NCBI RefSeq assembly: GCF_031624395.1
Contig: NZ_JAMQON010000001.1
Span: 1 to 64,000 of the forward strand
DNA from: Halomicroarcula saliterrae
GTDB lineage: Archaea; Halobacteriota; Halobacteria; Halobacteriales; Haloarculaceae
Length of the DNA stretch: 64,000 nt
Direction: 5' to 3'
Shown here piece after piece: positions 11,546-40,358 of this stretch. Both the position numbers and the translations under genes were made by a program. The notes beneath the pieces were generated by a model. It was not told the DNA's origin. It did not search any database and saw only the letters and a list, made by a program, of their open reading frames with translations. Every line of letters starts with the position of its first letter. Within the stretch, counting starts at the first letter, position 1.

Positions 11546-11620
11546 ATGTCGGACTACCCGACGGAGGATAGAGGAAGTCGCCGCGAGGCGACTGGGTGTG
11601 AAATTCGTCCAGCTGTGTGA
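11546..11620 (+). other. Structured leader and upstream ORF before the LeuA/CimA gene
   Basis: A 24-codon frame (ATG 11546, TGA 11618-11620) begins MSDYPTEDRGS and overlaps the first possible start of the synthase gene. Inside it lies a perfect 6-bp hairpin GTCGCC-GCGA-GGCGAC (11577-11592) with a GNRA-class tetraloop. The leader encodes no Leu and only one Ile, so it is not a classical attenuator. It could be a regulatory 5' UTR or a short coupled ORF. Confidence 0.4.
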
Positions 11621-37873: not shown

Positions 37874-39280
37874 ATGCGCGAGGGCCATCCCATCGAGCGA
37901 ACGGTCGGCATGGAGTACTACGTCAGCGACGCCGACGGCGTGGGCGGGCACCTCCGGGCGAGCCCCGAGGACTTCCGGGTCACCGAACTGGAGTCGTTCG
38001 ACACCGCGCCGGTCGACGCCGACACCGGCGGCTACCCCCACCTCGTCTGCCGGGTCGAACTCCGCAACTGGGACACGAACGACTTCGCCAGCGCCCTCTC
38101 GGACCGACTCGGCGTCTCCCGCGAGCGGGTCTCCTGGGCCGGGACGAAGGACAAGCGAGCGGTCACCCGCCAGCTGTTCTCGGTGAAAGGCATCGAGCCG
38201 GCGGCCCTCCCCGACCTCGACGGCGCCGACATCGAGGTCGTCGGCCGCGCCGGTCGCCCGATTCTGTTCGGGGACCTGGCCGGCAACGGCTTCGAAATCG
38301 TCGTTCGGGACACCGACGCGCCCGAGAACGCGGCGTCAGTGGTCGCGGACCTGCGGGAGTTTGCCGGCGAGGAGAGCGCCGACGACTCGGCGGACGGCGG
38401 GGCGACGGTCGCCGTCCCGAACTACTTCGGCCAGCAGCGCTTTGGCTCGCGCCGGCCGGTCACCCACGAGGTCGGCCTCGCTATCGTCCGCGAGCAGTGG
38501 AAAGAGGCCGTCCTCGCCTACGTGGGGAACCCACACGAGCGCGAGCCCGAGGACACACAGGCCGCCCGCGCGTACGTCGACGAGACCGAGGACTGGGCGG
38601 GCGCGCTCGACCGCCTCCCGCGGGCGCTCGGGTTCGAGCGGTCGATGTGTCACAAACTGGTCGAAAACAGCGAGGCGCGAAGCGCCTCGAACCAGTCGAG
38701 CGAACGGGGTCCGCGAGACAGCGGCCTGACGCCCGAAGACTTCCGCGAGGCCGTCGAGACGCTCCCGACGAACCTCCAGACGCTCTTTGTCAACGCCGGC
38801 CAGTCGTACGTCTTCAACCGGATTCTCTCGGAACGGCTGGAGCGAGGCCTGCCCTTCGACCGGCCGGTCGAGGGTGACGTGGTCTGCTTTGCCGACTCGG
38901 ACGCTCCCGGCGACCTCCCACTGCCCGACACCGACCGCATCCAGCGGGTCACCGGGAAGCGGCTGCCGACGGTCGAGCGCCACTGCGAGCGCGGTCGCGC
39001 GTTCGTCACTGCGCCGCTGGTCGGGACGGGGACGGAGCTGGCCGACGGCGAGCCGGGCGAGATAGCGCGCGAGGTCCTGGCGGACGTGGGGCTGGAACCC
39101 GGCGACTTCGCGCTGCCGGGCGAGTTCGACAGCGAGGGCACGCGGCGGGCGATACAGGTCCGGACGGAGCTGGGTGTCTCGCGTGACGGCGACGACCTGA
39201 CGTTCGACTTCGCACTGCCGAAAGGGAGCTACGCCACCGTCCTGCTGCGGGAGTTCCGCAAGAACGACCCTGCGGCATAA
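37874..39280 (+). CDS. truD: tRNA pseudouridine(13) synthase TruD
   Basis: 468 residues from the ATG at 37874 ([25 protein letters not shown]). The catalytic motif [15 protein letters not shown] near residue 95 carries the Asp. [23 protein letters not shown] and [23 protein letters not shown] are family blocks. A Ser/Arg-rich segment ([21 protein letters not shown]) between two conserved helices is encoded by 38671-38728, which contains an 8-bp palindrome and looks like an in-frame repeat insertion. The enzyme acts on U13 of tRNA and probably on other RNAs. Confidence 0.93.
38671..38728. repeat. Palindromic insertion inside truD
   Basis: CGAGGCGC-GAA-GCGCCTCG (38671-38689) is a perfect 8-bp stem, followed by repeat-like AGTCGAGCGAACGGGGTC. 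The segment is in frame and codes for about 20 extra residues relative to the usual short ENG-type turn in TruD. Confidence 0.5.
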
Positions 39281-39626
39281 TCCGAAGCCGTTTTCGAGAG
39301 CGCTCTCTTGGCTACTGTCCGCGAGAGCCAGAAAGCCCCCGCAGTCTCGACTCGCGCGGCTCGCTGCGCGCTTCGCTCACTGCGTTCGCTACAGTGCTTA
39401 CTTCGCCGTGCTTCGCCGAGACCGCGGCCCCTTTCAGTCCCACCCATGCCGGCTGGCCAACCGGTTACGGGTGGACTGAAAGGGGCGACTGGCTGTTTGT
39501 GGCGGAGTCGCTGTGAATCGCTAGCAGGGATCTCCGGCTGTCCACGCTCGCGTTCCGATATCCAAGCGCAACGTTACCGACGGAGAACCGCCTCGCTTAT
39601 CCACGCCAGCCGCCCTACGACTCGGT
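39281..39626. other. Gene-free 346-base spacer with repeats
   Basis: No credible ORF on either strand. The left third (39340-39425) is a G+C-rich, repeat-like tract with several short stems and the loop motif TCACTGCGTTC at 39377-39387. The middle holds a long inverted repeat (39428-39485). The right part is plain sequence leading to the DUF2103 gene, with a weak promoter around 39595. Confidence 0.7.
39428..39485. repeat. Long inverted repeat with GACTGAAAGGGG arms
   Basis: Left arm CCCCTTTCAGTCCCACCC (39428-39445) and right arm GGGTGGACTGAAAGGGG (39469-39485) pair along their whole length apart from a one-base bulge, around a 23-base loop. It is the strongest inverted repeat in the window and lies outside any gene. 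Confidence 0.85.
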
Positions 39627-40358
39627 ATGGACTGTCGGCAGTGTGCCACGCCGCTCGATAGACCGGGCGACTACTGTCTGGTCTGTCACACTGCCAACGC
39701 CGACGCCGTCGTCCTCGAACTCGAACGCGACCGAGCGACGGTCACCTGTCTGCTCGACGGGTCGGTCGTCGGCGAGCGAGCGGTGACGACGACCCCGGAG
39801 GGCGAGGGCAGCGACGAGCTGGTCGTCGTCGAACTGCGGAACTTCGCCGGCCTCGTCGCCGACGAGGTGCGACGCAAGCGCCCCGAGGAAGTGTACGTCA
39901 CCGGCGAGTACGAGGTTATCAGCGCGGTGCGGGGCCAGCTCCACCACGAGTTCTTCCGGGTGAAAGGCGACGACCCCGTCGGTCGGGTCATCGACCGGCA
40001 GGGCGAGCCCGCGCTCGAAGTGGTCGACGCCCCGCCGGAGTCGAAACTCGGCGGGAGCCACTCGACGCTCATCGGCGGTCGGGCGGGCCAGCGGGTCGTC
40101 TACACCGTCGCCGGCCACCCGCACGTCAAGAAAGTGATTCCGGGGCCGATCGACGCCGGCGGGGCCTCCTCGCCGACCGGCGTCCGGGCGAAGGCCACCC
40201 GCGCCGACGCCAACGGGAACGTCCGCGTGCTCATCCGGGACGGCTCCAGCGTCCAGGAGAACCGCGTCGTGACGACGGCGGGCGACCGCGAACTCGGCGA
40301 GCACGTCCGCGCGGACCTGAACGAGGCGCTGATAGAGGCCGAGTTACAGGACGAGTGA
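39627..40358 (+). CDS. DUF2103 predicted metal-binding protein
   Basis: 243 residues. The N-terminal finger MDCRQCATPLDRPGDYCLVCHTAN has two CxxC pairs. The body runs DELVVVELRNFAGLVADEVRRKRPEEVYVTGEYEVISAVRGQLHHEFFRVKGDDPV and ends SPTGVRAKATRADANGNVRVLIRDGSSVQENRVVTTAGDRELGE, as in archaeal DUF2103. The role is unknown; the zinc ribbon and basic strands suggest nucleic-acid contact, which is an inference. Confidence 0.85.
   Translation: MDCRQCATPLDRPGDYCLVCHTANADAVVLELERDRATVTCLLDGSVVGERAVTTTPEGEGSDELVVVELRNFAGLVADEVRRKRPEEVYVTGEYEVISAVRGQLHHEFFRVKGDDPVGRVIDRQGEPALEVVDAPPESKLGGSHSTLIGGRAGQRVVYTVAGHPHVKKVIPGPIDAGGASSPTGVRAKATRADANGNVRVLIRDGSSVQENRVVTTAGDRELGEHVRADLNEALIEAELQDE

Follow-up and report, generated by a model that had tools for sequence, protein, structure and literature searches.

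The window analyzed here is a stretch of 64,000 nucleotides of the Halomicroarcula saliterrae genome. Between truD and the gene for a DUF2103 protein it contains a long inverted repeat, for which a preliminary description had offered three identities: the end of a miniature element, a structured RNA or a terminator for truD. What kind of sequence this repeat is, and whether any of these identities fits it, is the question raised by the locus.

The inverted repeat and its surroundings

The inverted repeat (39427-39486, unstranded), delimited by pairing and fold, forms a hairpin whose arms, GCCCCTTTCAGTCCCACCC (19 nt) and GGGTGGACTGAAAGGGGC (18 nt), enclose a 23-nt loop and leave one bulged C; counted within 39428-39485, the arms have 18 and 17 bases and one bulge, exactly as first described. 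The minimum free energy (MFE) of this hairpin is -42.9 kcal/mol, compared with -22.1 +/- 3.0 in dinucleotide shuffles (z -7.0), and none of the 200 shuffles matched it; folding of the window copy with DNA parameters gives z -2.9. The inverted repeat is therefore real, and both of its neighbors were identified by domain as TruD (PF01142, E 4.3e-143) and DUF2103 (PF09876, E 1.8e-37). At no more than one mismatch, GACTGAAAGGGG is found in the 64-kb window just in the two arms (0.22 sites expected).

The hairpin is the center of a larger feature that extends from 39324 to about 39496. Its left end (39324..39339, minus strand) reads AGAGCCAGAAAGCCCC, with reverse complement GGGGCTTTCTGGCTCT, and differs by one mismatch from the end motif GGGGCTTTCTGGCTGT. 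The adjoining stretch (39339..39427, unstranded), earlier noted as a repeat-like GC tract, proves to be the 89-nt left hairpin arm of the same element; its outer stem CCGCAGTCTCG / CGAGACCGCGG has 11/13 pairs, and it has BLAST copies elsewhere in the same genome. To the right of the center, comparison with full copies identifies a stub, GACTGGCTGT (39487..39496, plus strand), and the spacer and upstream region of the DUF2103 gene (39497..39626, plus strand) serve as context only. The window copy reads GGGGCGACTGGCTGT where full copies show an arm ahead of GGGGCTTTCTGGCTGT. Thus, it retains the left end, the left arm and the center, while on the right side the arm is absent and the end incomplete. 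Since the end and numerous arm stems contain the 7-mer CTGGCTG, the right arm was likely lost by deletion between copies of it, and the window copy would be a deletion derivative generated through short direct repeats.

Copy number and taxonomic range

A query of 161 bases (39340-39500) returned 34 BLAST rows in the same genome, which represent at least 19 distinct places (grouped by hand from the 40 of 55 first-look candidates that were scored, hence a minimum), and it matches 24 of 31 relatives. The copy-number search that the preliminary description had suggested thus finds a repeat dispersed in its own genome and in related ones, and not a sequence unique to the truD locus. To follow the central hairpin further, we used a strict pattern of exact letters, CCCCTTTCAGTC-N16-45-GACTGAAAGGGG, which yields minimum counts. 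This strict center is present in 43 of 292 Halobacteria genomes and in 19 of 77 genera, with 0 to 22 copies per genome, and a reversed-pattern control gave no match among the rows listed. In a draw of genomes from the phylum, it was found in 4/33 members of Halobacteria and in 0/163 members outside this class. A scan of named genomes produced at least 120 stretches, and the titles among the matches listed are all haloarchaeal; the listed carriers include Haloarcula, Halonotius, Halorarius, Haloterrigena, Natronococcus, Halobacterium and Halomarina. An arm-like BLAST query, scored for most rows on six candidates per genome, detected the element in at least 92 of 145 Halobacteria genomes and at least 41 of 58 genera.

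A viral origin was considered and dropped, because the strict center has no exact-letter match in viral contigs and BLAST gave no phage match. Among 72,556 plasmid records, each of two queries has partial matches in seven, all haloarchaeal, and no match covers 80% of the query. The end motif, at no more than two mismatches, occurs at 72 sites in the H. saliterrae genome (G000), compared with 5 for the reversed-pattern control. Three element ends stand in tandem with a 45-bp period at G000:C4:269005-269110, and double ends are also seen at the truD site of three relatives (G009, G002 and G041).

Anatomy of the element and covariation of its stems

The anatomy was read from 121 copies in loci L048-L167. 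From outside to inside, a full copy consists of inverted ends (ACAGCCAGAAAGCCCC/GGGGCTTTCTGGCTGT), one hairpin arm on each side and the central hairpin. The end motif GGGCTTTC is found on both sides in 94 of the 121 copies, which span 155-448 bp (median 263). The two ends of a copy resemble each other in detail: end positions 9, 10 and 12 agree between left and right in 92, 94 and 83% of 86 copies, compared with 47, 33 and 41% for random pairs, so that bases which differ between lineages nevertheless concur within a copy.

Each arm is a hairpin in which the outer 12-13 bases pair with the last 12-13. At least 10 of 12 stem pairs are formed in 172 of 201 distinct arms (86%), compared with 4% for swapped arms, and the stems of these 201 arms comprise 155 different 12-mers. 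The remaining 29 arms fall below 10/12 pairs, some of them through degenerate stems or a shifted register. The left and right stems of one copy are uncoupled (match 5.4/12). With two inverted ends, two self-complementary arms and the center, a cloverleaf of three hairpins is possible on either strand. The RNA minimum-energy fold has the left arm paired with itself in 27 of 51 full copies with short arms; otherwise, in some copies, the left and right arms pair together as one long hairpin, and the cloverleaf is thus not the choice of every copy in single-strand folds. Within 202 arms, a script detected 38 double-hairpin modules, that is, neighboring pairs of perfect hairpins of 41-54 bp, which by eye fall into at least six classes that differ in linker and in position within the arm. 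The median arm length is 143 with a module and 89 without one.

Orthologous sites

Among 30 loci of the DUF2103 gene in the genus, the element follows truD in five (G000, G034, G009, G002 and G041). The other 25 comprise one N run, four element-free spacers of 49-67 bp, four loci with an intervening gene and 16 in which the stretch holds no truD end. The five copies have a common left junction and left-arm stems that are all different, with 13/13 pairs in four genomes and 11/13 in the window; on the right, everything from a full arm to its deletion is seen. No empty and otherwise identical site was found for the window copy, the element-free genomes having the 49-67 bp spacer or another gene order.

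Insertion polymorphism, the other check proposed in the preliminary description, was found as presence and absence of the element at two further orthologous sites. Site A was defined by 18 close orthologs, with lower-identity matches set aside. Seven of them are filled, three are relics, two are empty and read straight across (G032 and G033), and six contain no recognizable element. The empty sites agree with the joined flanks of the filled copies in 109-112 of 121 columns. At site B, six of 30 loci are filled, one is a relic and nine are empty with the same gene pair, while the remaining 14 have another upstream gene and are therefore uninformative; the spacers beyond the element differ between filled and empty loci, and site B offers no clean junction. 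The empty sites could reflect losses instead of sites that were never filled.

The groups compared were picked for similar-looking centers, and they are examples and not rates. In one ortholog pair a whole copy is inverted: a 323-bp core (L198 529-851 and L199 479-801) is 99.1% identical from end to end, and its flanks, with identities of 89 and 93%, run in the opposite sense to the core. The copies in L201 and L202 (G006 and G011) are 100% identical over 322 bp, whereas their flanks have diverged to 96.5% and 92%, which suggests either recent copying or strong retention. In the pairs L203/L204, L209/L210 and L211/L212, double-hairpin modules of ~50 bp have been gained or lost. Finally, L213 and L214, from a single genome, have the center and the right arm in common and differ in the left arm.

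Gene context

None of the 121 copies lies inside a called gene (home-made gene caller, 120 loci). The neighboring genes are tandem in 59 cases, divergent in 33 and convergent in 9, and 20 copies stand at locus edges. This mix resembles that of control gaps of at least 150 bp (97 tandem, 55 divergent and 31 convergent), with convergent pairs somewhat rarer. Most element ends are found at 86-120 bp from a start codon, with a TATA-like box ~60 bp downstream of them, and the median distance from an element end to a stop codon is about 70 bp. Between positions -50 and -41 relative to the start codon, CTAG is present in 34 of 125 upstream regions beside a copy and in 30 of 382 controls (examples are L103, L104 and L115). 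The CTAG near -45, first read as a promoter motif, is at some sites part of a 45-bp repeated tail. Some pairs of neighbor genes recur across genera. There is no obvious regulon: the 222 flanking proteins form 19 clusters larger than one, none with more than three members, and a regulon reading was dropped for this lack of clustering.

Terminator and RNA readings

The proposed role as a terminator for truD finds no support, since no T-run stands behind the stem and positions 39200-39700 contain no terminator-like site; an intrinsic terminator was rejected on the same grounds. At the Rfam gathering score, matches in the window are limited to tRNA and leuA-Halobacteria, the latter being a cis-regulatory RNA (RF03001) at 11557-11609 on the plus strand with 69.8 bits. 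None falls on the element, and its assignment to a known RNA family was accordingly rejected. Selection on an RNA should favor G-U over A-C among stem mismatches. The sense-strand counts of G-U and A-C in the 59 tandem copies are balanced (13 and 17 in the center, 33 and 33 in the arms) and thus count against a selected RNA, in a small test that assumes read-through in the direction of the gene. Lacking both an Rfam match and a G-U excess, the structured RNA of the preliminary description is not supported by these tests either.

Search for a mobilizer

A Y1 transposase domain was found in 11 of 16 carriers and in 12 of 16 genomes without the strict center, "without" meaning no exact center, so that degenerate copies may be present. 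It is missing in five of the carriers (G000, which is the H. saliterrae genome itself, G121, G223, G253 and G126) and in four of the genomes without the strict center. Given these five carriers, Y1 transposase is not needed for carriage, and since its presence is also unlinked to carriage it was rejected as the sole mobilizer; the enzyme may have acted in the past, or have since disappeared. When the 121 copies were read up to 350 bp from the center, none stood out as autonomous, and no open frame was recognized between the ends of any copy read. A classical transposon with target duplication was rejected too, because we found no consistent duplication of 2-6 bp at a fixed offset; there is one weak signal of a 2-bp duplication (6 compared with 1.2 expected), and the flanks of site A permit a 3-bp TGT repeat.

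Relation to known repeats

Palindromic repeats of prokaryotes are mostly short and tied to a known transposase, and double-hairpin elements are familiar from mitochondria. We found no description of the present element in open-licence PMC full text, the nearest being an account of haloarchaeal repeats (PMC3119063). RepRanger names no haloarchaeon among the archaea it lists (PMC12306157).

The small repeats SMR-A and SMR-B of Haloquadratum walsbyi are described in that account as having inverted terminal repeats, tens of copies, no target duplication and no known mobilizer; they are about 80-110 bp, too short for a transposase, with >95% identity within a type, and SMR-A insert inside palindromes of other elements (PMC3119063). 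Like SMRs, the present element has terminal inverted repeats, as seen from the agreement of ends within copies, is too small to encode a transposase and comes in tens of copies, and its double-hairpin modules sit within arms much as SMR-A do within palindromes. Unlike SMRs, it measures 263 bp in the median, ranges across the class and bears a pair of long arms whose stems change freely; the comparison with HqIRS40-43 and HqIRS55 is one of descriptions and not of sequences. PATEs carry near-terminal palindromes, without target duplication or coding capacity; direct repeats mediate deletions of their cores, no inverted repeats mark their termini, and they are linked to IS605-type transposons (PMC3119063). 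The arm hairpins of the present element likewise adjoin its ends, it too is non-coding, and its arms would similarly be deleted between direct repeats; in contrast to PATEs, these ends are inverted and carriage is possible without a Y1 transposase. Failing one defining feature of each, the element is set apart from SMRs and PATEs, its nearest kin.

The REP, BIME and REPIN sequences with their RAYT transposases are many-copy intergenic palindromes in inverted arrangements; REPs measure 20-40 bp and bear a tag, GTAG or CGTC (PMC2817692, PMC3116915, PMC8266576, PMC3733652). The present element is similar in being an intergenic palindrome of many copies. It differs from REPs in its 60-nt central hairpin, in the absence of GTAG and CGTC at the foot of the window hairpin, and in its sizes and nested modules. 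The repetitive hairpin-forming elements of mitochondrial DNA are modules of two hairpins, very short, with which intergenic DNA is invaded (PMC2800124). The 41-54 bp two-hairpin modules within our arms are alike in form, and no sequence relation is claimed.

Interpretation

We consider it likely that a mobile palindromic DNA repeat, non-coding and non-autonomous, has the inverted repeat as its central hairpin, a reading in keeping with the dispersal and intergenic placing of the copies, the covariation of their stems, the filled, empty and relic sites, the inversion of a whole copy and the gain and loss of modules within arms. The proposal of a miniature element end had named the right kind of sequence, one that is repeated and variably present at orthologous sites, but the hairpin is the center and not an end. 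The window copy probably has no specific role for truD or DUF2103. As to the manner of movement, what is recognized in the element, and separately in its modules, may be the structure into which single-stranded DNA folds, for example during replication; a recombinase or host repair or replication functions would then act on it in trans. Arms would be swapped between copies through recombination, and short direct repeats between stems and ends would allow arms to be deleted. A fuller model, of hierarchical mobile DNA that keeps its structure, moves or flips as a cloverleaf folded in single strands, contains separately mobile hairpins and modules and is driven by a structure-reading activity other than Y1, is tentative and rather unlikely. 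Points against mobility are that no source of movement and no consistent target duplication were found, and that some positions are common to several genera, as would also be expected from old retention under selection.

Such retention is central to the improbable alternative that the repeat is a fixed functional element upstream of promoters, or an insulator, acting as a DNA structure or a protein site, which was duplicated and kept by selection. The distance of its ends from start codons and TATA-like boxes, the more frequent CTAG near -45 beside copies and the orthologous positions recurrent across genera would all suit it, whereas close relatives hold empty or relic sites, the flanking proteins suggest no regulon and the orientation of neighbors resembles that of long control gaps; moreover, selection against damage would leave a minimum distance from promoters, as would tolerance of copies outside them. 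A transcribed structured RNA that multiplied, or a structure or terminator at mRNA 3' ends, would account for the very stable fold and the strong stem covariation, and yet it appears very improbable given the lack of an Rfam family, of a T-run and of a sense-strand G-U excess, and the copies that lie between divergent promoters as well (33 of the 101 with both neighbors called). Least probable of all are passive palindromes without mobility, whose covariation would arise by template switching in replication, one strand of a stem being copied from the other. They account for the perfect pairing of stems whose sequence varies even from one orthologous copy to another and for the symmetric classes of mismatches, and leave unexplained the dispersal, the conserved ends, the cassette-like stems shared across genera, the clean empty sites and the inversion. 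Template switching may operate alongside mobility.

As a mobile palindromic repeat, the element would be a kind of selfish DNA without an enzyme of its own. Its family is haloarchaea-wide and includes several carriers without a Y1 transposase, and its self-complementary stems persist as their sequence turns over. The inversions, exchanges and insertions the size of a hairpin that distinguish close species offer tractable sites for the study of enzyme-free palindrome spread, and an unannotated non-coding repeat of this kind can mislead the calling of repeats, CRISPR and small RNAs in haloarchaeal genomes.
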